From the NCBI GenBank assembly GCA_021324295.1, contig JAJPJJ010000102.1, positions 1 to 46,882 of the forward strand: a stretch of 46,882 nt of DNA, in the 5' to 3' direction. Every line of letters starts with the position of its first letter. Position 1 is the first letter of the stretch. The DNA is from Bacillota bacterium (lineage in GTDB: Bacteria; Sysuimicrobiota; Sysuimicrobiia; Sysuimicrobiales; Segetimicrobiaceae). A program made the translations under genes and the position numbers. The notes beneath the pieces are model-generated. The model worked only from the letters and a program-made list of their open reading frames with translations. It had not been told where the DNA came from and did not search any database. Below are positions 15,467-43,164 of the stretch, in pieces.

Positions 15467-16660
15467 ATGGTCGAGACCGCGGCGCGCGTGGGGGTGTTCA
15501 CCGAGTCGGTGATCCGGGAGATGACCCGGCTGGCGTTGGAGCACGGCGGCATCAACCTCGCGCAGGGGTTCCCGGACTTCGCCGCGCCCCCGGAGCTGTG
15601 CGACGCCGCCGCGCGCGCGCTGGCCGACGGCCACAACCAGTACGCGATCACGTGGGGCTCCCCGCGGCTGCGCGCCGCGCTCGCCGAGAAGGTCCGGTGG
15701 TTCAATGGACTCGAGGTGGACCCGGAGCGCAACATCACGGTGACGTGCGGCGCCACCGAGGCGATGATGGCGACGATGCTCGCCACCGTGAACCCCGGGG
15801 ACGAGGTGATCGTGTTCGAGCCGTTCTACGAGAACTACGGGCCGGATGCCAAGCTCTCCGGCGCGGTGCCGCGGTTCGTCCGGCTGCGTCTGGAGCCGGG
15901 GTTCCCGTTCGATCCGGATGAGCTGCGCGCCGCCGTCACCCCGCGGACCAAGGCGGTCATCGTCAACACCCCGCATAACCCGACCGGCAAGGTGTTCAGC
16001 AGGGACGAGCTGGAGATCATCGCCGACCTCTGCCGCCGGCACGACCTCCTGGCGATCACCGACGAGGTGTACGAGCACATCGTCTACGACGGCCGGGCCC
16101 ACGTGAGCCTGGCCACGCTCCCGGGGATGGCCGAGCGCACGGTGATCGTGAACAGCGTGAGCAAGAGCTACAGCGTGACCGGATGGCGGATCGGGTGGAC
16201 GATCGCGCCGGCGCACATCGCGGACGGGATCCGCAAAGTCCACGACTTCCTCACGGTCGGGGCCGCGGCGCCCCTGCAGGAGGCCGCGGTCACGGCGCTC
16301 CGGTTCCCGCGCGAGTACTACGCCCGCCTGGCCGCGATGTACCAGCGCAAGCGGGACACGCTGCTCGCCATCCTGCGGGACGCCGGGTTCGCGTGCCTGG
16401 TGCCGGGCGGGGCGTACTACATCATGTGCGACATCACCCCGCTCGGATACGACGACGATTACGCGCTCACGATGCACCTGATCAAAGACGTCGGCGTGGC
16501 GCCGGTGCCGGGCTCCTCGTTCTTCTACGAGCCGGCCGCCGGCCGGCGGTACGTCCGGTTCGCGTTCCCGAAGCGGGAGGAGACGTTCGGCGAGGTCCGC
16601 GCACGGCTCTCGCGGCTGCGGCCCCGCACCGCCGGCCGGGCGCGCTCCGCGCCGGTGTGA
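15467..16660 (+). CDS. PLP-dependent class I/II aminotransferase
   Basis: 397 residues, fold-type I. The PLP-binding Lys is K233 in NSVSKSYSVTGWRIGW. Other markers are INLAQGFPDFAAP near the N-terminus, NTPHNPTGKVFS for substrate/cofactor contact, ITDEVYEHIVYDG, and the phosphate-tail region YVRFAFPK. The opening GGINLAQGFPDF resembles the kynurenine/methionine aminotransferase (YbdL-like) group, which often uses methionine, glutamine or aromatic amino acids; the true substrate cannot be read. A strong AGGAGGGGGAG immediately precedes the ATG. The gene is not part of the B. subtilis order, where dtd follows relA, so it is an extra gene in this block. Confidence 0.85.
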   Translation: MVETAARVGVFTESVIREMTRLALEHGGINLAQGFPDFAAPPELCDAAARALADGHNQYAITWGSPRLRAALAEKVRWFNGLEVDPERNITVTCGATEAMMATMLATVNPGDEVIVFEPFYENYGPDAKLSGAVPRFVRLRLEPGFPFDPDELRAAVTPRTKAVIVNTPHNPTGKVFSRDELEIIADLCRRHDLLAITDEVYEHIVYDGRAHVSLATLPGMAERTVIVNSVSKSYSVTGWRIGWTIAPAHIADGIRKVHDFLTVGAAAPLQEAAVTALRFPREYYARLAAMYQRKRDTLLAILRDAGFACLVPGGAYYIMCDITPLGYDDDYALTMHLIKDVGVAPVPGSSFFYEPAAGRRYVRFAFPKREETFGEVRARLSRLRPRTAGRARSAPV

Positions 16661-16726
16661 CCGCACCCAGCGCACTCCGCCCCCCTCTTCCATCACAGGG
16701 CCCCCGCCGTCGCGCGATGCGCACGT

Positions 16727-16755
16727 TTGCGGGGAGCCGGCCGTCCTGGTACTCT
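16727..16755 (+). promoter_or_regulatory. Extended -10 promoter for the dtd-hisS-aspS group
   Basis: TTGCGG at 16727-16732, a 17-base spacer, and TACTCT at 16750-16755 preceded directly by TGG (an extended -10 element). Transcription should start near 16762, about 50 bases before dtd. The rimP operon promoter has the same TTGCGG plus TGn pattern. Confidence 0.55.
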
Positions 16756-16811
16756 CAATGGGACATGATCGCCGCGCAGGGGCCAGTCCGGACGATGAGG
16801 CGCCGGCGCTG

Positions 16812-17369
16812 ATGCGGGCGCTCGTCCAGCGCGTCCGGCGGGCGGCCGTCTACATCCTGGGCGAGGACGCGTCCGGCCGGGTGGCCGGCCCGGCGGAGCC
16901 TTGCGCGGAAGCCCCGCAGCCGATCGGCCGGATCGACACCGGGTTTGCGGTGCTGCTCGGCGTGCACGTGCACGATACCCGTGAGGACGCCGACCACCTC
17001 GCGGGGCGCGTGGCCGGGCTCCGGGTGTTCAGCGACGAGGCGGGCCGGCTGAACCGATCGATCCGGGACATCGGAGGGCAGGTGCTGAGCATCCCGCAGT
17101 TCACGCTCTACGCGGACACGCGACGGGGGCGCCGGCCGAGCTTCATCGACGCGGCCCCGCCCGAGGTGGCCGAGCCGCTGTACCGGCGCTTCAACGAGCG
17201 CCTCGCGGCCGCCGGCGTGCGGGTCGTCCCAGGGCGGTTTCGCGCCCACATGGTGGTGGAGATCCACAACGACGGCCCGGTGACGATCCTCCTGGAGACG
17301 CCGGTGCGGCCGCCCGGGCCCGCGTCCGGCCGGGAGGCGCCCCTGCCCGGCGCCGACGGGACCGCGTGA
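16812..17369 (+). CDS. dtd: D-aminoacyl-tRNA deacylase
   Basis: Hydrolyses D-amino acids (and mischarged glycine) from tRNA. 185 residues versus about 145-150 usual. The family start MRALVQRVRRAAV, the active-site segment PQFTLYADTRRGRRPSF and the Gly-cisPro motif NDGPVT are present. The extra length comes from an insertion of about 17 residues after the first strand (about residues 15-37, Gly/Ala/Pro-rich) and a 22-residue Pro-rich tail. Both lie outside the catalytic motifs. The ATG at 16812 begins the family N-terminus exactly. The next gene overlaps its stop (TGATG). dtd-hisS-aspS is a conserved order in Firmicutes. Confidence 0.93.
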   Translation: MRALVQRVRRAAVYILGEDASGRVAGPAEPCAEAPQPIGRIDTGFAVLLGVHVHDTREDADHLAGRVAGLRVFSDEAGRLNRSIRDIGGQVLSIPQFTLYADTRRGRRPSFIDAAPPEVAEPLYRRFNERLAAAGVRVVPGRFRAHMVVEIHNDGPVTILLETPVRPPGPASGREAPLPGADGTA

Positions 17370-21762: not shown

Positions 21763-21769
21763 AAAGGTG

Positions 21770-21953
21770 GCTCCTGCGGTGTGCGCTAGGCCCGTGGTCC
21801 CGAGCCAACAGGAGCACGAAGGGAGCCCGGCTTCGGACGGCAACGGCACGGCCCCGTACGCGCTGACCGGCTGGGGCTAGCCGGACCCGCCCGAGAGGGC
21901 ACCCACCTGCGAGGCGCAGGTTCGGGGACTGCGGCCGGCGGCACCGCGGGAGC
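21770..21953 (+). ncRNA. ssrS: 6S RNA (regulator of the housekeeping RNA polymerase holoenzyme)
   Basis: 6S RNA mimics an open promoter and sequesters RNA polymerase. The two ends form a closing helix of 12 base pairs: GCTCCTGCGGTG at 21770-21781 with CACCGCGGGAGC at 21942-21953, with one G-U pair. The 184-base length equals that of typical 6S RNAs. The 5' half (TGGTCCCGAGCC) resembles the E. coli 6S segment around AGTCCCCTGAGCC. The 3' half has a hairpin ACCTGC-GAGGC-GCAGGT on the 3' side of the expected central bubble, followed by a GGGGACTGCGGC region like the E. coli GGGTTACAGCCTGCGGC. An apical hairpin CCGGCT-N6-AGCCGG lies at about 21870-21887. Its own promoter starts at the first stem base. 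B. subtilis 6S-1 is also next to aspS. Confidence 0.85.
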
Positions 21954-22421
21954 GTCTCCCGCCGCCGGACTGGCGCGCGCACCCGCCCGATGACGCCCGC
22001 GCACCGCACCCCCGCCGACTCCTCGCCTGCGCTGCAGTCGCATTTCATCCAGCCGGGGACCCGGTCGATCGGGATCGTGGGCGGCAAGGGGGATGCCGGC
22101 GTGCCGGCCGCCCGCGCGTTCCTCGACAGCGCCGCGGCCGTGCGCCGGCTCTGCCCCTCGCCGCCGTAGCCGCCGTCTTCGCATCCCGGCCAGAGCGCGG
22201 GTGGGGGCGAGGCCGGTCCCCCGCTCCCGGGACGCGCTCCAGCGCGGGCCGGCGGTCCGCCGGACGCGACGGCGCCGATCGGAGGGGCCGCCGGCCCGAC
22301 GGGGTCCTCCGCTGACCTACTTGGTCGAGACCGAGACCCGCGTCCGCCCCGGGGCAGATCCTCGTCGGCCCGCGCAACCGCCCCCCGATGTGGCCGCAGG
22401 ACACCGGGCCTCCGCGGCAAG
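21954..22421. other. Intergenic stretch between 6S RNA and the formate dehydrogenase operon
   Basis: About 470 bases without a gene I can support. One frame, ATG 21990 to TAG 22169 (59 residues), contains IGIVGGKGDAGVPAA, which has a nucleotide-binding look. It lacks a ribosome site and any further family match. The rest is very GC-rich with many short inverted repeats of no clear type. No tRNA-Sec or sel gene is present. Confidence 0.45.
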
Positions 22422-22447
22422 GTTTGCGGCGGGAGCGCCAGGGCAAT
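22422..22447 (+). promoter_or_regulatory. Possible SigB-like promoter for the formate dehydrogenase operon
   Basis: GTTTGC at 22422-22427, a 13-base gap, and GGGCAA at 22441-22446. The SigB consensus is GTTT..-N12-14-GGGTAT, so the -35 core fits and the -10 box fits at four of six positions. The overlapping TTGCGG (22424-22429) with AATAAA (22445-22450) is an alternative housekeeping reading but has a short spacer of 15. Two GGAGG-type ribosome sites follow before the fdh start. Confidence 0.3.
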
Positions 22448-22478
22448 AAAGGAGGCGACGCAAGGAGGATGCTGCGGC

Positions 22479-25400
22479 ATGCGTGACTGGCGTACCCTTC
22501 TCTCGCAGTGGCCGGTCGCCCGCCAGCTCCAGCAGAGAGACCCGACCGCGCTCGGCAGCGCCGCGTTCTCCCCGCGCAGCCGCGACCTGAGGCCCCGGAC
22601 GGCGACCGCAGACCGTGTCGTCCGGTCGGTGTGTCCCTACTGCGGCGTCGGCTGCGGCCAGCTCGTCTACGTCAAGGACGGGAAGATCACGGACATCGAG
22701 GGCGATCCGGACTCGCCGATCTCGGCCGGCTGCCTGTGTCCCAAGGGCGCCGCGACGTTCCAGCTCGTCACCGGTGCCCACCGCGTCCACCACGTGCTGT
22801 ACCGCCGGCCGCACGGCACGCAGTGGGAGACGATCCCGCTCGAGGTCGCGATGGACATGGTCGCCGACCGTGTCCGCAAGACGCGCGACGAGACGTGGGA
22901 GGACCGGACGCCCGAGGGGGCCCTGGCGCGGCGGACGCTCGGGATCGCGCATCTCGGCGGCGCCACGCTCGACAACGAGGAGAACTACCTGATCAAGAAG
23001 CTGTTCACGGCGCTCGGCATCGTCCAGATCGACAACCAGGCCCGTATATGACACTCCTCCACGGTCCCCGGTCTGGGGATCTCGTTTGGACGGGGCGGGG
23101 CCACTACGTTCCAGCAGGACCTGCAGCACGCGGACTGCATCGTGATCCAGGGCTCCAACATGGCGGAGTGCCACCCGGTCGGTTTCCGCTGGGTGATGGA
23201 GGCCAAGAATCGCGGCGCCACGATCGTCCACGTCGATCCCCGGTTCACGAGGACGAGCGCGGTCGCGGACATCCACGTGCCGATCCGCGCCGGGAGCGAC
23301 ATCGCGTTCCTGGGCGGCATCGTCAACTACATCATCACGCACGAGCGGTACTTCCGGGATTACGTCGTCCACTACACGAACGCCGCGGCGATCGTCTCCC
23401 CCGATTTCCAGGACACCGAGGACCTCGACGGGCTGTTCAGCGGCTACAACCCCGAGACTCGGCACTACGATATGCGGTCCTGGGAGTACGAGGGCCAGCA
23501 GCGCTCGCCCGTCGTCGAGACCCACCAGGAGTACCACGAGCTGACCGGCGAGCCGTGGTCGGAGGGGCCGCCGCAGGCCCGAGCGGAGCACTACGACGAG
23601 ACGCTGCAGCACCCCCGGTGCGTGTTCCAGATCGTCAAGCGGCACTTCTCGCGGTACACGCCGGAGGTCGTGGAGCAGATCTGTGGGGTCCCCCGGGATC
23701 TGTTCCTCAAGGTCGCCCAGACCCTGTGCGACAACTCCGGCCGGGAGCGGACGTCGGCCTTCTGCTACGCCGTCGGCTGGACGCAGCACACCGTCGGCGT
23801 GCAGTATATCCGGACGGCCGCGATCGTCCAGATGCTCCTCGGCAACATGGGCCGCCCGGGCGGCGGCATCCTCGCGCTGCGTGGCCACACGTCGATCCAG
23901 GGGTCCACGGATATCCCGACGCTCTACGACCTGCTCCCGGGCTACCTGCCGATGGCCAAGGGGCAATACGACGCGGACTTCGGCCAGTATGCCTTTCACA
24001 ACACCGGCCGGGCCGGGACGTGGAGCAGCTTCCCCGCGTACGCGGTGTCGCTGCTCAAGGCGTGGTACGGGGACGCCGCCAGGGCGGACAACGACTGGGC
24101 GTTCCACTACCTGCCCCACATCACCGGAAACCACTCGCATCTCATGACCGTCGCGGCGATGGCCGACGGCAGGGTGAGGGGCTACTTCGTGATGGGCGAG
24201 AACCCGGTGGTGGGCACGGTCCACTCGGCGCTCCACAGCAAGGGCCTGCGCGCGCTCGAGTGGCTCGTGGTGCGGGACTTCGCCCCGACCGAGACGGTGG
24301 AGTTCTGGCGCACCGGGCCGGAGATCGCCCGCGGCGAGGTGCGGCCCGAGGAGATCAAGACCGAGGTCTTCTTCTTCCCGGCCGCGGCGCCCACCGAGAA
24401 GGACGGGAGCTTCACCAACACCCAGCGCCTCCTGCAGTGGCACCACAAGGCGATCGAGCCGCCGGGGGACTGCCGGAGCGAACTGCACTTCATGTACCAC
24501 CTTGGCCGGCGCCTGAAGCGCCTGTACGCAGGGTCCGCGGATCCCAAGGACCGGCCGATCCTGGACCTCGTGTGGGACTATCCGACGATCGGGGCGATCG
24601 CGGAGCCGGATGCCGAGGCGGTGCTCAGGGAGATCAACGGCTACACGGTGGCGGACGGGAAGTTGCTCTCGCGTTACCAGGAGCTCAACGACGATGGCTC
24701 GACCGCCTGCGGATGCTGGATCTACTGCGGCTGCTACGCAGGCGGCGTGAACCGGCCGGCCCGGCGGAGGCCCCGGACGGAGCAGACGTGGGTGGCGCCG
24801 GAATGGGCGTGGGCGTGGCCCAGCAACATCCGCCTGATGTACAACCGGGCCTCGGCCGATCCCGGGGGCCGGCCGTGGTCCGAGCGCAAGAAGTACGTCT
24901 GGTGGGACGCCGAGGGGGGCCGCTGGACCGGGTACGACCACCCGGACATCGTCGAGGCCAAGCCCCCGTCCTACCGGCCCGGCCCGGATGCCGAGGGCAT
25001 GGACCTCCTCTCCGGCACCGATCCGTTTTCGCTGCACGCCGACGGCAAGGCGTGGATGTTCGCGCCGGCCGGGCTCGTGGACGGCCCGCTGCCGACCCAC
25101 TACGAGCCGCAGGAGTCCGTGATCAGGAGCCCGCTGTACGGCCAGCAGTGCAACCCGGCGCGGCTGGAGTGGGATCGGCCGGACAACCCCTATCACCGCG
25201 CGTACAACGATCCCCGCTTCCCGTATGTGCTCACGACCTACCGGCTCACCGAGCACCACACCGCGGGCGGCATGACCCGCTGGCTCTCGTGGCTCAGCGA
25301 ACTGCAGCCCGAGATGTTCTGCGAGGTCTCCCCGGAGCTCGCCAGGGAGAAGGGCCTCCGGAACGGCGGCTGGGCGACGATCACCACGGCCCGGGGCGAG

Positions 25401-25736
25401 ATCGAGGTCCGGGTGCTCGTCACGGACCGGATCCCCCCGCTGCGGCTCGAGGGGAGGACCGTTCACCAGATCGGTCTCCCGTACCACTGGGGCAGCCGGG
25501 GGCTCGTCCGGGGCGAGGCGGCGAACGCGCTGCTCCCGTTCGTCGCCGATCCGAATGTCTCGATCATGGAAAGCAAGGCCCTCACCGGCAACATCGAGCC
25601 GGGACGGCGCGGCCGCGGCCGCCGGGTTGTGACGAGCGGACCCATCGTGCCGCCGCTGGACCACGACGGCGCGCCCCGGGACCTCCGGCCCCCGGCGTCC
25701 GGCGCCGGATCGGGGAAGCGACCGAGGGAGCGATGA
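22479..25736 (+). CDS. fdhA: Formate dehydrogenase, catalytic molybdo/tungsto-selenoprotein subunit (TGA at 23049-23051 = Sec191)
   Basis: Oxidises formate to CO2 at a bis-pterin Mo/W centre. The coding sequence crosses one in-frame TGA at 23049-23051. The reading before it (IDNQARI) and after it (HSSTVPGLGISFGRGG) joins into the family active-site segment, where Sec or Cys is followed by the catalytic His. In FdnG this reads ARVUHGPTV. A SECIS-type hairpin follows the TGA. Read through, the protein has 1085 residues. Cys52, Cys55, Cys59 and Cys87 (CPYCGVGC ... CLCPKG) bind a 4Fe-4S cluster. Pterin-binding domains follow, including STACGCWIYCG and a C-terminal MopB-type domain ending near TGNIEPG. 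No Tat signal is present, so it is probably cytoplasmic. AAGGAGG (22462-22468) fixes the ATG at 22479. It overlaps the next gene by ATGA. Confidence 0.92.
23049..23081 (+). promoter_or_regulatory. SECIS-like element directing selenocysteine insertion
   Basis: Directly after the TGA, 18 bases lead to the apical loop GGTCT (23070-23074), flanked by the stem TCCCC (23065-23069) and GGGGA (23075-23079); G64-T80 and G63-C81 can extend it. The loop sequence and the 18-base distance equal those of the E. coli fdhF SECIS recognised by SelB. The bulged U of the E. coli stem is not evident. It acts on the mRNA inside the coding sequence. Confidence 0.82.
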
Positions 25737-26539
25737 TCGCGATGGGCGCAAAGGGATTCTTCACCGACACGACCGTCTGCATCGGGTGCAAGGCCTGCGA
25801 GGTCGCCTGCAAAGAGTGGAACCAGTTGCCGGACGACGGGATGTTCTTCACCGCGATGTCCTACGACAACACGGTGAGCCTCGGCGCCTCGACGTGGCGC
25901 CACGTCGCGTTCATCGAGCGCCCGGTGCCCCTCGGCGGGCAGACGACCGCGCACGGCATCTCGTGGCTCTTCATGTCCGACGTCTGCAAGCACTGCCAGC
26001 GCGCCGGGTGCCTGGAGAACTGCCCGACCGGCGCGATCGTGCGCACGGAGTTCGGCTCGGTGTACGTCCAGCCGGACGTCTGCAACGGGTGCGGGTACTG
26101 CATCGCCGGCTGCCCGTTCGGGGTGATCGACCGCCGCGCCGGGGACGGCCGTGCCTGGAAGTGCACCCTCTGCTACGACAGGCTCCGCGGCGGCCTCGAG
26201 CCCGCGTGCGCCAAGGCGTGTCCCACCGACTCGATTCGATTCGGCGACGTCGACGAGCTCCGGGCCACGGCCCGGGCGAGGCTGGAGCAGCTCCACGCGC
26301 GAGGCGTCACGGAAGCGTACCTGTACGGCGAGGACGCCGCGAGGCAGCCGGGCACCGAGGGCCTGAACGCGTTCTTCCTCCTCGTCGATCGGCCCGAAGC
26401 GTACAACCTGCCGCCCGATCCCGTGGTCCCGACCAGGAAGATCGCGCCGGCGTGGCTGTCGTTGGCCGCCGCGGCGCTCGGCATGGCCGCCGCCGCCGTC
26501 GGGGCCGTCGCGTCGAGCCAGGAGAGGGGGCACTCATGA
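25733..26539 (+). CDS. fdhB: Formate dehydrogenase iron-sulfur subunit (four 4Fe-4S clusters)
   Basis: Carries electrons from the catalytic subunit to the membrane. 268 residues. Four cysteine groups are visible: CIGCKACEVAC (about 16-26), CKHCQRAGCLENCP, CNGCGYCIAGCPFG, and CTLCYDRL with ACAKACP. This is the set for four 4Fe-4S clusters as in FdnH/HybA-type proteins. A hydrophobic C-terminal segment, about residues 240-261, could be a membrane anchor. The ATG lies in an ATGA overlap with the fdhA stop, and its own stop overlaps the next ATG in the same way. The three genes are therefore translationally coupled. No signal peptide is seen, which matches a cytoplasmic catalytic subunit. Confidence 0.93.
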   Translation: MIAMGAKGFFTDTTVCIGCKACEVACKEWNQLPDDGMFFTAMSYDNTVSLGASTWRHVAFIERPVPLGGQTTAHGISWLFMSDVCKHCQRAGCLENCPTGAIVRTEFGSVYVQPDVCNGCGYCIAGCPFGVIDRRAGDGRAWKCTLCYDRLRGGLEPACAKACPTDSIRFGDVDELRATARARLEQLHARGVTEAYLYGEDAARQPGTEGLNAFFLLVDRPEAYNLPPDPVVPTRKIAPAWLSLAAAALGMAAAAVGAVASSQERGHS

Positions 26540-27690
26540 GCGATCGCGGCAGCGTCGCGGCCGAGGCGAGGACCGCCGGCGAGCCCCGGCACGTCGATCC
26601 GGAGGTCGGGCTGCTGGTCGGCGAGGCCGCGCAGCAGCGGGTCCCGGCCGAGCGGGCAGAGGAAGGGGCGCCGCCCTACGCTGTGTGGGACCGGTCCGTC
26701 GCGCGCGAGGAACGGGCGGCTGCGGACACGACCTACTACGACCGCCCGGTGATCAAGGAGCCGGTGTGGATCTGGACGGTACCGCTGTACTTCCACGCGG
26801 GAGGGGCGGCGGGCGCGGCGGCCGTCCTCGGCGCGGTCGCGCAGGGCGTCGAACGCCGGCGACTCGGGCGGCTGGTGACGCGGTGCCGGTGGATGGGGGC
26901 CGTGGGCAGCGCGCTCGGCAGCGGGCTGCTGATCTCCGACCTCGGGCGGCCGGAGCGCTTCCTCAACATGCTGCGGGTGTTCCGGCCGACGTCCCCGATG
27001 AGCGTGGGATCGTGGCTGCTGGCCGGTGTCGGCGCGCTCTCAGGGGCCTCCGCGGTGCTCGCGTCGTCGGACGGGCTGCTCGGGCGCGCGGGCGACGCCG
27101 CCGCCTACGGCGCCGGGCTGCTCGGGATGCCGCTGGCCGGCTACACCGCCGTCCTGATCTCGCAGACCGCCGTGCCGGCGTGGCAGGAGGCACGGCGGTC
27201 GCTGCCGGTGGTGTTCATGGGATCGGCGATGGCGGCCGCGGCCTCGCTGCTCGCCCTCGCCCCGCTCGGCCCGCGCGAGGAGGACGCCGTCCGCCGCTTC
27301 GGCATGGTCGGCCAGATCGCCTCGCTCGCAGGGATGCTGGCGGTCGAACGCGAGGTGTCGCGGATCGAGCGGGTCGGCGCCCCGCTGCGGCGCGGGCCCG
27401 TGGCGGCGCTGTGGAACGCCGCGCGCGCCGCGGAAGTCGCGGCGCTGCTGCTGTCCGGGTTTCCGGGCCGGTCCCGCCCGCGGAGGACCGCCGCCGCGCT
27501 GCTCGGCACCGCCGCGGCGCTCGGCCTGCGATTCGCGGTCTTCCTCCTCGGCCGGGCGTCGGCCCGCGATCCCCGCGCGACATTCCACCAGCAGCGGGCC
27601 GGCCGCGGCGCGGCCGAGGTGACCGGCACGGCCGGCGTCGCTTCCCCCGCAGGGGACGGCGGCGAGGCCGCGACGTCCGCGGAGGGATAG
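26536..27690 (+). CDS. NrfD/PsrC-like membrane subunit (quinone-reactive), formate dehydrogenase partner
   Basis: Integral membrane protein that probably passes electrons between FdhB and menaquinone. 384 residues. An unusually long soluble N-terminus of about 75 residues comes first, then about eight or nine hydrophobic segments. The NrfD hallmark lies at about 131-162: LISDLGRPERFLNMLRVFRP followed by TSPMSVGSWLL. The sequence before it, PVIKEPVWIWTVPLYFHAGG, is also typical of the actinobacterial-type NrfD proteins that accompany formate dehydrogenases. It replaces the cytochrome b subunit FdnI; no haem-binding His pattern is seen. The start overlaps the fdhB stop by ATGA. The last 40 residues are an Ala/Gly-rich tail. 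Confidence 0.88.
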   Translation: MSDRGSVAAEARTAGEPRHVDPEVGLLVGEAAQQRVPAERAEEGAPPYAVWDRSVAREERAAADTTYYDRPVIKEPVWIWTVPLYFHAGGAAGAAAVLGAVAQGVERRRLGRLVTRCRWMGAVGSALGSGLLISDLGRPERFLNMLRVFRPTSPMSVGSWLLAGVGALSGASAVLASSDGLLGRAGDAAAYGAGLLGMPLAGYTAVLISQTAVPAWQEARRSLPVVFMGSAMAAAASLLALAPLGPREEDAVRRFGMVGQIASLAGMLAVEREVSRIERVGAPLRRGPVAALWNAARAAEVAALLLSGFPGRSRPRRTAAALLGTAAALGLRFAVFLLGRASARDPRATFHQQRAGRGAAEVTGTAGVASPAGDGGEAATSAEG

Positions 27691-27743
27691 CCGCCGGCGC
27701 CCTCGGGCGTCCGGACGGGAGCGAGGGGAAGGAGCTGATCGCG

Positions 27744-27977
27744 ATGGCGCGATGCGAGGTCTGCGGCAACGACTACGACAAGGCGTTCGAGGTCGTGCTG
27801 GCCGGCCGCCGGCACGTGTTCGACAGCTTCGAATGCGCGATCCACGCGCTGGCGCCGCGCTGCGCGCACTGCGGCTGCGCCGTGATCGGGCACGGCGTGG
27901 AAGCCGACGACACCATCTTCTGCTGCGCCCACTGCGCGGCGCAGCGCGGCGTCGCGGCCATCCGGGACCGCGCGTAG
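27744..27977 (+). CDS. Small Cys-rich metal-binding protein (prokaryotic metallothionein-like)
   Basis: 77 residues with a CEVCGNDY start (CxxC), then HVFDSFECAIHALAPRCAHCGCAV, then TIFCCAHCA. In total there are nine cysteines and several histidines in a short chain. The pattern suggests one or two zinc sites and resembles small proteins annotated as prokaryotic metallothioneins in actinobacteria. The true role is unknown. GGGGAAGGAG about 10 bases before the ATG is a good ribosome site. It lies 53 bases after the NrfD-like gene and touches the next gene at TAGTG, so it is likely part of the formate dehydrogenase transcript. Confidence 0.75.
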   Translation: MARCEVCGNDYDKAFEVVLAGRRHVFDSFECAIHALAPRCAHCGCAVIGHGVEADDTIFCCAHCAAQRGVAAIRDRA

Positions 27978-28486
27978 TGGCGTACGTCCTGGGCCTCTTC
28001 CCGCACCGGGCGGACGCCGATCGTGCGGCGGCCGCGATCGAGCAGGCCGAGGCGCCGCACGCGTCGTGCCGGACCTCCGGGCCCGCCACCCGCGTCGGCG
28101 CGTGGCTCGCGGAGCTCGCCGGCGGAGGGCACGAGGCGGGCCGCGCGGGGGGAGGCCTGCCCCCGGAGGATGCGCGCTGGTACGAGGAGGAGGTGCGGCG
28201 CGGCCGCGTGCTCCTGGTCGCGCGCACGGAGCAGGACCCCGCCCGCGTGGCCCAGATGATGCGGGAGCTGGGCGCGGCGGACGCTCGCGCGTATGGGCTT
28301 GCGGAAGGGGCGTGGGTTCGCCAGGAGCGAGCGCCGGAGGGAGCGGGCGGCAAGACCTACGAGCGCGCACCCTACACGCCGGGGGCGCCATCCGGCGGGC
28401 CCGCGGCGGAGCGCGCCCGGGAATCCGGGTACCTCCCCGAGCGGGACGAGGACCGGCGAGGCGGCGGGAAGGAACGGGGCGGCTGA
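27977..28486 (+). CDS. Hypothetical protein, possibly general-stress YflT-like
   Basis: 169 residues starting at a GTG whose first base is the last base of the preceding TAG. The first 110 residues look like an alpha/beta domain: AYVLGLFPHRADADRAAAAIEQAE at the start, later a charged helix WYEEEVRRGRVLLVARTEQDPARVAQMMRELGA (only the outline is cited). This is reminiscent of YflT/GSP17M-type stress proteins with paired ACT-like repeats, but the match is weak. The last 55 residues are hydrophilic, Gly/Glu/Arg-rich and probably disordered. The overlap with the upstream gene suggests it is the last gene of the formate dehydrogenase transcript. Confidence 0.6.
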   Translation: MAYVLGLFPHRADADRAAAAIEQAEAPHASCRTSGPATRVGAWLAELAGGGHEAGRAGGGLPPEDARWYEEEVRRGRVLLVARTEQDPARVAQMMRELGAADARAYGLAEGAWVRQERAPEGAGGKTYERAPYTPGAPSGGPAAERARESGYLPERDEDRRGGGKERGG

Positions 28487-28518
28487 CCGCCGGCAACGCG
28501 AACGCCGCGAGCACGCAT

Positions 28519-28544
28519 GTTTGAGGCCCGCAGCGCGCGGGTAT
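28519..28544 (+). promoter_or_regulatory. SigB-type general stress promoter upstream of the DUF892 gene
   Basis: GTTTGA at 28519-28524, 14 bases, and GGGTAT at 28539-28544. The SigB consensus is GTTTaa-N12-14-GGGtAt, so the -10 box is perfect and the -35 core is perfect. No TTGACA/TATAAT pair is nearby. The predicted start near 28552 leaves an 80-base leader before the ATG at 28635. A SigB-family sigma factor is encoded at 35405-36196. Confidence 0.65.
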
Positions 28545-28634
28545 CGTCCGATATGAACGACGCGCAGCCGGCGCGGCGACGTCGGTTCCACCGCCGCCCC
28601 GCCGTACCGTGATCGTCGGAAGGGAGGATGGCGC

Positions 28635-29285
28635 ATGGCTGCTAGAACCGGACGGGCCGCCACCGCGGCAAAGAGAATGGCGGCACGAACGAGGACCACG
28701 GGGAGGACAGCGGCGCGGGCGAGGACCACGCCGGCGAGGGCCCGGCGGTCCCCGGGGCCGCGGCTGGACTCGCTGCGGTCGCTGTTCATCGAGGAGATCA
28801 GGGATCTGTACGACGCGGAGCATCAGATCCTCAAGGCGCTGCCGAAGATGGTCAGCGCGGCGTCCCACTCCGACGTGAAGAGCGCGCTCGAGAATCACCG
28901 CAGGGAGACCGAGGAGCACGTGCGGCGGCTCGAGCAGGTCTTCGAGGACTGCGGCGTGCCGGCGCGGGCCCGCCGGTGTGAGGGCATGGCGGGCGTGATC
29001 CAGGAGGGGACGGAGACGGTCCAGGCCGCGGTCGACCCGGACGTCCGCGATGCGGCCATCATCGAGTCCGCGCAGAAGGTGGAGCACTACGAGATGGCTG
29101 GATACGGCACCGTGCGCACCTTTGCGCAGCGGCTCAACATGCCGGAGTGCGCCAGCGTGCTCCAGCGCACGCTCGATGAAGAGAAGCAGGCCGACCGGAA
29201 GCTCACCGACATCGCGGAGAGCGCCGTGAACGTGCACGCCGCGGAGGCCGAGGGCGGCGACGAGGAAAGCGAAGAGATGGAGTAG
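28635..29285 (+). CDS. DUF892 (YciF-like) ferritin-like stress protein with a basic N-terminal tail
   Basis: 216 residues. Residues about 45-200 form the four-helix DUF892 domain: LRSLFIEEIRDLYDAEHQIL, the helix with ENHRRETEEHVRRL, ESAQKVEHYEMAGYGT and TLDEEKQADRKL. The Glu and His residues could bind two metal ions, as in ferritin-like proteins. Relatives are induced by stress and may handle iron or oxidants. The first 43 residues are almost only Ala, Arg, Thr and Lys, like a histone H1 or Dps tail, which suggests DNA binding. AGGGAGG precedes the ATG by 7 bases. The SigB-type promoter upstream indicates stress control, and hsp20 follows. Confidence 0.88.
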   Translation: MAARTGRAATAAKRMAARTRTTGRTAARARTTPARARRSPGPRLDSLRSLFIEEIRDLYDAEHQILKALPKMVSAASHSDVKSALENHRRETEEHVRRLEQVFEDCGVPARARRCEGMAGVIQEGTETVQAAVDPDVRDAAIIESAQKVEHYEMAGYGTVRTFAQRLNMPECASVLQRTLDEEKQADRKLTDIAESAVNVHAAEAEGGDEESEEME

Positions 29286-29308
29286 GCGCCCCGCGGGCGC
29301 ATGGGCGA

Positions 29309-29347
29309 GACGGGCACGGCTCCGCGCTCCCGGGAGCCGTGCCCGTC
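29309..29347. terminator. 15-base-pair perfect hairpin between the DUF892 gene and hsp20
   Basis: GACGGGCACGGCTCC (29309-29323) and its exact complement GGAGCCGTGCCCGTC (29333-29347) are separated by 9 bases. No T-run follows, so it is not a textbook intrinsic terminator. It could stop or pause transcription, protect the 3' end of the upstream mRNA, or regulate hsp20 translation 35 bases downstream. Confidence 0.55.
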
Positions 29348-29381
29348 GGGCGTCCACGGCGCAGGCCCTGGGGGAGGACCG

Positions 29382-29810
29382 ATGACGACCGCACGCAGGA
29401 CGCCGGTCAACGTCTACCGGCAGAACAACCGCATCATGGTCGCGACGCCGGTGCCGGGGATGGAGCCCGTCAACATCCGCATCGAGGTGCACGGCCGCCG
29501 GGTCACCGTGCAGGCGACCCTGCGCGGGCCCGGCCAGGATCGGAAGCAGCAGTACCTGCGACGCGAGTGGAGCGTCGGCCCGTATGAACGAACGGTGACG
29601 CTGCCGACCTGGGTGGACCCGGCTCGGGCCAACGCGACCTACGACAACGGTGTGCTCGTGGTCATCCTGCCCATCGCCGCCCGGCGCACCTCGGGCACCA
29701 TCATGCTCCGCAAGGTCGGCACCGCGAAGGGGCGTTTGCGGAGGCACGTCGGCGCAAACCTCCGACCGGCCGACGCCACGTCCGCCGAGACCGCCCCCGC
29801 CGCCCCGTAG
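29382..29810 (+). CDS. Hsp20/alpha-crystallin family small heat shock protein
   Basis: ATP-independent chaperone that holds unfolding proteins. 142 residues. The alpha-crystallin domain is visible as NRIMVATPVPGMEPVNIRIEVHG, then REWSVGPYERTVTLPTWVDP, then the end ANATYDNGVLVVILPIA. The usual N-terminal arm is very short (about 10 residues) and the C-terminal I-x-I anchor is not evident, so oligomerisation may differ from standard Hsp20. The GGGGGAGGACCG before ATG 29382 is a good ribosome site. It follows the DUF892 gene and a strong hairpin, and may share the SigB-type promoter. Confidence 0.85.
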   Translation: MTTARRTPVNVYRQNNRIMVATPVPGMEPVNIRIEVHGRRVTVQATLRGPGQDRKQQYLRREWSVGPYERTVTLPTWVDPARANATYDNGVLVVILPIAARRTSGTIMLRKVGTAKGRLRRHVGANLRPADATSAETAPAAP

Positions 29811-29813
29811 CCA

Positions 29814-30023
29814 TCACCAGGGCGTTCCGTGCTCGATTGACAGGATCCAGCTCTTCCGGCGAAGCGGTGCCGGCAGGCGGCCGTGGACGGCGCGGAGCTC
29901 CTGCACGTATTGTTGCCGGACCGTGCGCGCCGCCACGGCATCCTCGACCTCGACGTCGGGGGAGTTGAGCATCCGCAGCCGCTTCCGGATCCGCAGCAGC
30001 GCCTGGATCACCTCGGGTCCCAT
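29814..30023 (-). CDS. Small hypothetical protein (69 residues)
   Basis: I do not recognise this gene. On the - strand, GGAGGAG lies about 7 bases before the ATG at 30023, and the frame runs 69 residues to a stop at 29814. The product MGPEVIQALLRIRKRLRM... is charged and helix-prone, with no membrane segment or metal motif. It converges with hsp20, whose stop is 4 bases away, and diverges from the glutamate dehydrogenase gene. The ribosome site and non-shadow position speak for a real gene; the short length speaks for caution. Confidence 0.5.
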   Translation of the reverse strand: MGPEVIQALLRIRKRLRMLNSPDVEVEDAVAARTVRQQYVQELRAVHGRLPAPLRRKSWILSIEHGTPW

Positions 30024-30137
30024 CGTCCACGCTCCTCCACCCGCGCCGGTCCCCGGGCCCGGCCCCGCGCCGGCGCACACGCGTCGCGCCCCGGCGTTCC
30101 GTAGGGCGCGGCCCGGAGACGGCGTCCGTAGGTGATC

Positions 30138-30187
30138 ATTCCCCGGTCAGGCGGCGGGGAATCCTCGCGGCCCCAGCCGGGGCCGCG
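30138..30187 (+). other. Two tandem hairpins in the region before the glutamate dehydrogenase gene
   Basis: Hairpin one: ATTCCCC (30138-30144) with GGGGAAT (30156-30162) around an 11-base loop. Hairpin two: CGCGGCCCC (30166-30174) with GGGGCCGCG (30179-30187) around AGCC, extendable by CCT/AGG past a 2-base bulge. They lie 3 bases apart and about 50 bases before the gdh ATG. They may be a leader structure of gdh or a boundary between the divergent units. No matching riboswitch class is recognised. Confidence 0.45.
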
Positions 30188-30236
30188 CGAGGAAGCCGGT
30201 GAGCGTGCGCGAATCACGTGAAGAGGCGCCAGACCG

Positions 30237-39129: not shown

Positions 39130-39801
39130 CTACGAAGTCGGGCCCCGGGCGAGCGGCAGCGAGAGCAACTCGCCGAGGTGCATGATCACCCGCCACGGCT
39201 CGATCCCGCGCCGGCGCAGCTCCTCGGCGGACCGGCGGTACGCGATGAAGACCGCGCCCGCCTCCGCGGCCGCCGCGCCGTCGATCCACGAGTCTCCGAT
39301 GACGTAGGCCCGCGCGACGCCGCCGAGGCGCCGGAGGGCCTCCCGGACCCCGTCGCCCGCGGGCTTCAGCGCCGCCACGTCGTCCCGCGCGACGATCGTC
39401 TCCGCGCAGCCGTCCAGGCCGGCGGCGCGGAGGGCGGCGAGCGCCGGCTCGCGGCCGTTGTTGGTCAGGATCGCGATGCGGTACCCGCGATCCCGCAGCG
39501 CGCGCAGCACGGCAGGGGCCCCGTCGAGGGCGGAGGCGTCCTGGAGGCCGGCCGCCTCGTGCGCCTCGATGATCCGCCACAGCTCCGGGACGAGCTGCGT
39601 CCTGTGCGCGCGGTCGTGCGCGGCCCCCAGCGCCACGAGCTCGGCGATCGCCCGCCCCATCAGCGCGTCCGGCGCCTCCGCCGTCGCGCGCGCGGCGCGG
39701 AGGACCGAGACGAGCTCCCGGCGGATCGCCGTGAAGTCGATCCGCGAGCCGAGCACGGTGTTGTCCATGTCGAAGATGAGCGCGATCCCGCCCGGCGCCA
39801 T
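39130..39801 (-). CDS. HAD-superfamily phosphatase
   Basis: 223 residues, haloacid dehalogenase fold. Motif I is ALIFDMDNTVLGSR (nucleophile Asp and acid/base Asp), motif II is in IAILTNNG, motif III is the Lys in VAALKPAGDGV, and motif IV is VIGDSWID. The cap is a small helical insertion after motif I, as in phosphoglycolate phosphatase-like members. The substrate cannot be read. ATG 39801 is preferred over upstream in-frame ATGs, because a promoter (TTGGCC-17-TGCTACAGT) places the transcript start about 3 bases before it. It is transcribed away from asnS. Confidence 0.88.
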   Translation of the reverse strand: MAPGGIALIFDMDNTVLGSRIDFTAIRRELVSVLRAARATAEAPDALMGRAIAELVALGAAHDRAHRTQLVPELWRIIEAHEAAGLQDASALDGAPAVLRALRDRGYRIAILTNNGREPALAALRAAGLDGCAETIVARDDVAALKPAGDGVREALRRLGGVARAYVIGDSWIDGAAAAEAGAVFIAYRRSAEELRRRGIEPWRVIMHLGELLSLPLARGPTS

Positions 39802-39810
39802 CACGGATGT

Positions 39811-39839
39811 ACTGTAGCACAGGAGCGCGGCGCGGCCAA
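39811..39839 (-). promoter_or_regulatory. Promoter of the HAD phosphatase gene
   Basis: Read on the - strand: TTGGCC (39839-39834), a 17-base spacer, and TGC directly before TACAGT (39816-39811). The predicted start near 39804 is almost on the ATG at 39801, so the message is leaderless or nearly so. It lies back to back with the asnS promoter. Confidence 0.5.
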
Positions 39840-39848
39840 ATGCGGGCG

Positions 39849-39857
39849 TGGTAGAAT
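39849..39857 (+). promoter_or_regulatory. Extended -10 promoter of asnS
   Basis: TGG followed by TAGAAT (39852-39857). No -35 hexamer is recognisable; the extended -10 may compensate. The start would be near 39864, leaving a 26-base leader with GAGGGAGC before the ATG. The -35 region overlaps that of the divergent HAD gene. Confidence 0.5.
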
Positions 39858-39889
39858 CGAGTGGTAGCATCGCCGAGGGAGCACCGACC

Positions 39890-41185
39890 ATGCGACCTGT
39901 CGTGACCATCGACCGCATCGGCGAGCACGCCGGTCAGGAGGTGGAGGTCCGCGGCTGGCTCTACAACGTGCGGAGCAGCGGGGCGCTGCACTTCCTGCTC
40001 GTGCGCGACGGGACGGGCCTGCTGCAGGCGGTGGCCGCCCGCTCGGAGCTGCCGGCCGAGGTGTTCGAGGAGGCGGGCGCGCTGACCCAGGAGTCCGCGA
40101 TCGTCGTGTCCGGGCCCGTGCGCGACGATCGGCGGGCGCCCGGCGGCCACGAACTGTCGCTCCGGGAGCTCCGGGTCGTGCAGCGCGCAGAGCCGTATCC
40201 GATCACCCCCAAGGAGCACGGCATCGAGTTCCTCATGGACCACCGCCACCTCTGGCTGCGCAGCAGCCGGCAGTGGGCGATCATGCGCGTGCGCGCGGAG
40301 GTGGAGCGGGCGATGTGCGACTACCTGGACGACGCGGGCTACCTCAGGATGGACGCGCCGATCCTGACGCCCTCGGCGTGCGAGGGCACCACGACGCTGT
40401 TCGCAACCCCCTACTTCGATGCGACGGCGTACCTCACGCAGAGCGGCCAGCTCTACAACGAGGCCGCCGCCGCCGCGCAGGGGCGGGTGTACTGCTTCGG
40501 CCCGGTGTTCCGCGCCGAGAAGTCGAAGACCCGCCGCCACCTGACGGAGTTCTGGATGCTGGAGCCGGAGGCGGCCTACCTCGACCTCGACGGCTGCATG
40601 GCGCTCGCCGAGGGGCTCGTCGTGGCCGTCGTCCGCCGCGTCCTGGACCGGCGGCGGCGGGAGCTCGAGGTGCTCAAGCGGGACCTCGCCCCGCTCGAGG
40701 CGGTGCGGCCGCCCTTCCCGCGGATCACCTACGACGAGGCGGTGGAGCGCCTCCGGCAGCAGGGCTCCTCCATCGCGTGGGGCGAGGACTTCGGCGGGGA
40801 CGAGGAGACGGTCCTCAGCCGGCTCTACGACCGCCCGGTGTTCGTTCACCGTTACCCGGCCCGCTGCAAGGCGTTCTACATGCGGCCCGACCCGGAGAGG
40901 CCGGAGGTCGTCCTCGGCGCGGACCTCCTCGCGCCCGAGGGATACGGGGAGATCGTGGGCGGCGGGGAGCGGATCCACGACCGCGCCCTGCTCGAGCGGC
41001 GGCTCGAGGAGGCGCACCTGCCGCGCGCGGAGTACGCGTGGTACCTCGACCTGCGGCGGTACGGGTCCGTGCCGCACAGCGGCTTCGGCATCGGCGTCGA
41101 GCGCACCGTCGCGTGGCTCTGCGGCCTGGACCACGTCCGGGAGACGATCCCCTTCCCGCGCACGATCAACCGGCTGTATCCGTAG
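39890..41185 (+). CDS. asnS: Asparaginyl-tRNA synthetase
   Basis: Class IIb synthetase that charges tRNA-Asn. 431 residues, normal for AsnRS. The N-terminal OB-fold contains [24 protein letters not shown]. The core has [41 protein letters not shown], motif 2 [21 protein letters not shown], and motif 3 [15 protein letters not shown]. The pattern CEGTT and the FWMLEPE end separate AsnRS from AspRS. ATG 39890 follows GAGGGAG by 8 bases and starts the family N-terminus. It stands alone between the divergent HAD gene and the rimP operon. Confidence 0.94.
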
Positions 41186-41198
41186 CGGAGCCCCACCG

Positions 41199-41216
41199 GG
41201 CCCCGCTCGGGGGGCC
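41199..41216. terminator. GC-rich hairpin after asnS
   Basis: GGCCCC (41199-41204) and GGGGCC (41211-41216) around six bases, 13 bases past the asnS stop. No T-run follows, so termination is only a possibility. It precedes the rimP promoter. Confidence 0.3.
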
Positions 41217-41254
41217 ACCGGCGGCCGGCAGGCGTCGGGCGTCGGCGCCTCATC

Positions 41255-41284
41255 TTGCGGCCCGCCGACGGCGTGTGCTATACT
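41255..41284 (+). promoter_or_regulatory. Promoter of the rimP-nusA-infB operon
   Basis: TTGCGG at 41255-41260, an 18-base spacer, and TATACT at 41279-41284 directly preceded by TGC (extended -10). The predicted start is near 41291, which leaves a structured leader of about 120 bases before rimP. Confidence 0.7.
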
Positions 41285-41298
41285 ACCCCTGGCTGTCC

Positions 41299-41378
41299 GG
41301 CACGGCTCGTGCCCCAATCTTGGCGTTTCTGGGGGAGTGGGTACCTGCACCCACTCTTTCGTTTCTTCAGGGCGCCAA
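41299..41378 (+). promoter_or_regulatory. Structured 5' leader of the rimP operon (candidate attenuator)
   Basis: Hairpin one: GGCACG (41299-41304) with CGTGCC (41308-41313). Structure two is nested: an inner perfect 8-pair stem GAGTGGGT (41335-41342) with ACCCACTC (41349-41356), then CTG (41329-41331) with CAG (41368-41370), then an outer TTGGCG (41320-41325) with CGCCAA (41373-41378). The inner stem is followed at once by TTTCGTTTCTT, as in an intrinsic terminator. The outer helix would compete with or enclose it. Attenuators before rimP/nusA operons have been proposed in other bacteria. Confidence 0.6.
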
Positions 41379-41411
41379 AGGCTGGGGCGCATGCGTGTGA
41401 AGGAGCTCGTC

Positions 41412-41906
41412 ATGAAGCGGCAGGAGATCGCGCAGCAGGTGGAGAGGCTGGCCGCGCCGATCGGGGCGCGCATGGGTCTCGAGATCGTGAACGTCGAGCT
41501 GGTGGGCGACGGTCGCCAGCAGGTGCTCCGCGTCCTCGTCGACCGGGACCAAGGGGTCGGCGTCGAGGAGTGCGCGCGCCTCTCCGAGGCGCTCGGCCGG
41601 GAACTGGACCTGTACGATCTGCCGATCGGCTCGTACACCCTGGAGGTCGCGTCGCCCGGCTTGGACCGGACGCTCCGCCGGCCCGAGGAGTTCATCCGGT
41701 TCTCGGGCCGGACCGTCGCGGTGACGGCGCACGCGCCGGTCGACGGGCAGCGGCGGTTCCGCGGCCGTCTGCTGGGCCTGGTGGACGGGCGCGTCGCGCT
41801 GCGCCTGGACGATGGGCGGGAGGTCCGCCTGGAGCCGGACAACATCGCGCAGGCGAAGCTCGTCGTGGAGATGGAGGAGCTGCGACAGGACCTGAAGCGG
41901 TTCTGA
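41412..41906 (+). CDS. rimP: Ribosome maturation factor RimP
   Basis: Helps assemble the 30S subunit. 164 residues from ATG 41412, which has AGGAG 6 bases upstream; an ATG at 41391 is in frame but has no such site. The two-domain RimP fold is clear: VERLAAPIGARMGLEIVNVELVGDG, LRVLVDRDQGVGVEECARLS, LEVASPGLDRTLRRPEEF (the conserved SPGLDR), and a C-terminal barrel with VEMEELRQDLKRF. It is the first gene of the rimP-nusA-ylxR-infB-ylxP-rbfA group known from Firmicutes. Confidence 0.93.
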   Translation: MKRQEIAQQVERLAAPIGARMGLEIVNVELVGDGRQQVLRVLVDRDQGVGVEECARLSEALGRELDLYDLPIGSYTLEVASPGLDRTLRRPEEFIRFSGRTVAVTAHAPVDGQRRFRGRLLGLVDGRVALRLDDGREVRLEPDNIAQAKLVVEMEELRQDLKRF

Positions 41907-41967
41907 CGGGTCCCACGGGACTCCGGCGGAGGGGCCGGACCTGAATGTGCCGGGGGTGAGCCGCACG

Positions 41968-43164
<1,197 letters not shown>

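Follow-up and report, generated by a model that had tools for sequence, protein, structure and literature searches.

The window, that is, the whole stretch of 46,882 nucleotides analysed here, carries the operon of a predicted formate dehydrogenase whose alpha-subunit gene, fdhA (positions 22479–25736, forward strand), contains an in-frame TGA. Translation shows that this TGA (positions 23049–23051, forward strand) is the single internal stop of the frame, and that the codon after it is CAC. If selenocysteine is inserted there (Sec191, in front of His192 in the local motif UHSS), the frame gives a protein of 1085 amino acids. The first-pass annotation had placed a TGA at exactly these three nucleotides, at the active-site Sec/Cys position and in front of a His codon; alignment with the selenocysteine of FdnG and with 108 homologues confirms both the position and its assignment. 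The same annotation expected a gene caller to split the gene, and the mechanical list of open reading frames indeed gives two pieces, 22479–23051 (190 aa) and 23142–25736 (864 aa), which shows that standard ORF calling would give this enzyme a wrong annotation.

The stop codon of fdhA, TGA at positions 25734–25736, lies where fdhB begins (positions 25733–26539, forward strand; overlap ATGA). This gene encodes a 4Fe-4S electron-transfer subunit with the Pfam domain Fer4_11, and its own stop is overlapped by the start of a gene for an NrfD-like membrane subunit (positions 26536–27690, forward strand; PF03916 NrfD, E = 1e-10). Of 80 homologous loci, some of them cut off by the end of a contig, fdhB was found at 73 and nrfD at 69. 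A 77-aa cysteine-rich protein is encoded further downstream (positions 27744–27977, forward strand; from translation); it has no Pfam or NCBIfam match and no match in the 80 homologous loci, and its membership in the operon is uncertain.

The identity of FdhA follows from translation, NCBIfam and Pfam models, and solved relatives. FdhA matches the NCBIfam model NF041513 over its full length with 1852.4 bits (cut-off 1400), scores 964.5 bits against TIGR01553 (cut-off 814.2), and contains the 4Fe-4S, molybdopterin and dinucleotide-binding domains PF04879, PF00384 and PF01568. Among solved structures, those closest to it are E. coli FdnG (1KQF) and the formate dehydrogenase alpha subunit 1H0H; in the alignment to FdnG that had been proposed as a check, the TGA falls exactly on the selenocysteine of 1KQF (given there as X), as it does on that of 1H0H. 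A review gives the motif at the selenocysteine site of formate dehydrogenases as UHxP (PMC13188914), of which FdhA has U and H, with S in place of P. Judged from sequence, the product of fdhA is therefore very likely a selenocysteine-containing formate dehydrogenase. FdhA has been described as the most widespread bacterial selenoprotein (PMC13188914), and the finding adds a new case of a known kind of enzyme, not a new mechanism.

Among known systems, the enzymes of NF041513 (formate_DH_Act; Sec or Cys; Actinomycetota, Acidobacteriota, Myxococcota, Geobacteraceae) share with the window the Sec codon, the SECIS element and the order fdhA-fdhB-nrfD; only the host differs, the type not being found in the sampled genomes of the same family. 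The likeness to E. coli FdnG of FdnGHI (1KQF) comprises the alignment through the Sec site, TIGR01553, and the 4Fe-4S and molybdopterin domains. In contrast to the periplasmic FDH-N of E. coli, FdhA has no Tat signal, no twin-arginine (RRxFLK-like) motif being seen on inspection of its N-terminus (MRDWRTLLSQWPVARQLQQRD), and FdhB scores only 190.5 bits against the FDH-beta model TIGR01582, below the cut-off of 334.7. The third subunits also differ: in E. coli FdnGHI it is FdnI, a cytochrome b gamma subunit, whereas in the window it is NrfD-like.

FdhA would be a molybdenum (or tungsten) bis-MGD enzyme with selenocysteine as a metal ligand, its sulfido ligand being supplied by FdhD, for which the genome has a gene on another contig (C26, positions 16089–16862, L240). 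The electrons of formate would leave FdhA by way of the 4Fe-4S subunit FdhB and reach the quinone pool through the NrfD-like membrane subunit, and because there is no Tat signal the active site probably faces the cytoplasm. On balance we lean towards this quinone-linked, cytoplasm-facing route.

Metal-dependent formate dehydrogenases can be reversible, and FdhA might by virtue of this act mainly in the opposite direction, forming formate by CO2 reduction to feed one-carbon assimilation, e.g., by the reductive glycine pathway, rather than in formate respiration. If the genome belongs to Sysuimicrobiota, such a role would fit the wide occurrence there of fdhA/fhs/folD and glycine-cleavage genes (PMC11604079); this placement is a guess, with which the sampled relatives, of the same order and beyond it only of the same domain, would agree, since they suit a phylum of a single order. 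The NrfD-type membrane subunit, however, points to quinone-coupled formate oxidation, and the operon has no ferredoxin-, NADH- or hydrogenase-linked partner, which makes the reductive role rather unlikely.

The predicted formate dehydrogenase is encoded in a block of about 8 kb between a 6S RNA (positions 21768–21956, forward strand; Rfam RF00013, 52.4 bits), on the aspS side, and the GDH gene. The block (positions 21957–30236, boundaries approximate) holds the fdh operon together with small and stress-type genes. DUF892 (YciF-type) and Hsp20 genes occupy positions 28635–29810, between the operon and GDH; the 80 homologous FDH loci gave no match to them. Two genomes of the same family (G002, L237; G006, L238) have an uninterrupted aspS-GDH-rarA-mnmA order without a formate dehydrogenase. 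In two others (G004:C10, L236; G007:C163, L239), about 13–16 kb of other DNA lies between aspS and rarA, and insertions may have occurred at this place more than once.

No formate dehydrogenase more than 45% identical to FdhA was found in the sampled relatives, while sequences from Actinomycetota, Acidobacteriota, Myxococcota and Geobacteraceae are 69–73% identical. In a tree of 96 rows, FdhA falls into the clade of the NF041513 type and the order's own formate dehydrogenases into another, with a support of 100 each; the exact sister of FdhA is not resolved. Since the enzyme was not found in the sampled relatives, the backbone is uninterrupted in two of them, and FdhA falls outside the clade of the order's own enzymes, the simplest reading is horizontal acquisition, and we consider it likely that the fdhA-fdhB-nrfD operon was acquired in this way by a lineage already decoding selenocysteine. 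It is known that fdhA can be transferred along with clustered sel genes (PMC1794560). In the window no sel gene lies beside fdhA, and the locus would be a clear example of how a selenoprotein operon can enter a Sec-decoding genome without adjacent sel genes.

The same contrast between 69–73% identity to other phyla and no more than 45% to same-family genomes would also arise if the contig were a contaminant from another phylum and the enzyme foreign to the genome, and the assembly, a draft of 129 contigs that is 96% complete, has an estimated contamination of 4.74%. Against this, AspS, GDH, RarA and MnmA of the contig are 71–80% identical to their counterparts in same-family genomes and stand in the same order, and in tetranucleotide profile the FDH part is in agreement with the remaining genome (0.73–0.87). 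AspS of the window is 73–76% identical to same-family genomes and 61–65% to other families of the order, so that the contig belongs to the lineage; contamination is highly improbable, and acquisition by the lineage is the reading we retain.

To examine the selenocysteine reading of the TGA, 108 homologous genes were compared, taken partly from genome collections and partly from the sampled relatives (the raw total of 110 counts the window twice). The codon at the Sec position is TGA in 89, TAG in two, TGC in 15 and TGT in two, and no other codon occurs. The cysteine homologues with which a comparison had been suggested are thus present, with TGC or TGT at the same codon. The two TAG rows (L091, L093) are Geodermatophilus and Blastococcus, of the Geodermatophilaceae, a family that uses UAG for selenocysteine with a CUA tRNA-Sec (PMC5330540); their enzyme family and SECIS are those of FdhA, and the difference lies in the codon, UAG there as against UGA with a tRNA-Sec of anticodon UCA here. 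The flanks of the TGA had been described as perfectly conserved in one frame: family homology does extend on both sides, but perfect conservation is slightly too strong, the nearest homologues being about 70–73% identical. At the level of sequence, homology through the TGA and the restriction of homologues to TGA, TAG, TGC and TGT confirm that the observation is more than chance.

The TGA is followed by a bacterial SECIS element (positions 23049–23093, forward strand), identified by covariation, by our model R1 and by comparison with fdhF. Its apical hairpin (positions 23063–23081, forward strand) has the loop GGUCU (positions 23070–23074), at +19 to +23 after the UGA, and the spacing, read directly, is identical in E. 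coli fdhF. Model R1 gives 66.9 bits for fdhA, a score to be read with the fact that the sequence itself was part of model building. In an alignment of 34 sequences the covariation score is 0.376, with a shuffled mean of 0.183 and none of 500 shuffles as high; slid partners give at most 0.158, and four of the SECIS pairs show compensatory changes. Folding of the single sequence was dropped as evidence and covariation used instead, because the folding energy of the fdhA sequence alone is unremarkable (z = −0.25, not significant) and shuffles often give the stem: 23% of synonymous shuffles also form six apical pairs, 0.8% with a GU-type loop.

The hairpin bears directly on the possibility that fdhA is a pseudogene of a Cys (TGC/TGT) enzyme, its TGA having arisen by recent nonsense mutation or by a mistake in sequencing or assembly. 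Of 87 Sec genes, 81 have all six apical pairs, and none of nine Cys genes does; in fdhA the hairpin is complete and of the Sec type, and since it is intact here and broken in the Cys homologues, a misread TGC or TGT is very unlikely. Most close homologues also carry TGA, the remainder of the 1085-aa frame is intact, and sel genes are present in the genome. What can be said for error or mutation is that the assembly is a draft and that its selA on contig C106 has a likely one-base error or mutation; taken as a whole, we find this explanation barely credible.

For the decoding of UGA as selenocysteine, the first-pass annotation had predicted sel genes elsewhere in the genome and named their absence as evidence to the contrary. 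Our search of the whole genome found selA, selB, selD and a tRNA-Sec with anticodon UCA. SelD and SelA, encoded away from the window, would make the Sec-tRNA, and SelB with Sec-tRNA-Sec(UCA) would bind the hairpin just 3′ of the UGA, leading to insertion of Sec191 instead of termination. Among 28 good-quality genomes of the order, selA is present in 25 and tRNA-Sec in 24, which establishes Sec decoding in an apparently uncultured order. The gain is one of annotation and of knowledge of the lineage, the biology of Sec formate dehydrogenases being already well known.

Two further selenoprotein genes were found in the genome. The gene selD (G000:C90:137275–138198, L026) has an in-frame TGA at the position of the UxxK motif of SelD (PMC13188914), so that SelD is itself a selenoprotein. 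A second Sec formate dehydrogenase is encoded on the contig that also carries fdhD (G000:C26:8044–about 11240, L212), with an in-frame TGA at the homologous codon and a SECIS scoring 63.9 bits with the same model as fdhA. It is 41–47% identical to FdhA and, unlike FdhA, has a Tat motif (RRDFLK) and resembles the formate dehydrogenases of other members of the family and order. When the genome was scanned with the SECIS model, no convincing site apart from those of the two FDH genes was reported; the selD site was not among them, and a different strong hairpin follows the selD UGA. That TGA might be a general sense codon of an altered genetic code, without a Sec signal, would account for an in-frame TGA in a conserved gene, but its probability is negligible, given that fdhA itself ends at a TGA where fdhB begins, that tRNA-Sec(UCA) and sel genes are present, and that the TGA codons of the other two selenoprotein genes stand at known Sec positions.

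With Sec decoding of the fdhA UGA retained, the state of the decoding genes deserves attention. The principal selA (G000:C106:124414–125774, L024) has lost one base from a C run that directly follows the GDKLLGGP motif, and so falls into two frames. A frame break in selA also occurs in G014, another draft genome of the order, which makes an assembly error plausible; the break could also be a real mutation.

The genome has in addition a divergent selA/selB pair on contig C42 (positions 39206–43130, L025), consisting of selB2 (39206–41392) and an intact selA2 (41751–43130), with a PemK/MazF-like ORF between them. No SelA more than 46% identical to SelA2 was found among 386 genomes, and its plasmid relatives are only about 40% identical. 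SelB2 matches TIGR00475 over positions 2–342 of 581 only, whereas SelB1 matches over the full length; the family match of SelB2 is confined to domains I–III. Contig C42 was searched for a second tRNA-Sec near selA2, and none was found. It can be imagined that the genome has two separate Sec-insertion systems, SelA1/SelB1/tRNA-Sec and SelA2/SelB2, the latter perhaps with a different RNA signal or tRNA in view of the match of SelB2 to domains I–III only, and that SelA2, because selA1 is broken, might have taken over Sec synthesis and perhaps now makes the selenocysteine for the fdhA UGA; we regard this as improbable. SelA2 retains the lysine region, which reads GDKLIGGPQAG when aligned to 3W1H.

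It should be noted that in another genome of the same family a tRNA-Sec, selA and a Sec formate dehydrogenase lie close together on one contig (G007:C34:5051–14002), and that this genome has a second selA and tRNA-Sec on its contig C11; the cluster on C34 suggests a transferable Sec module.
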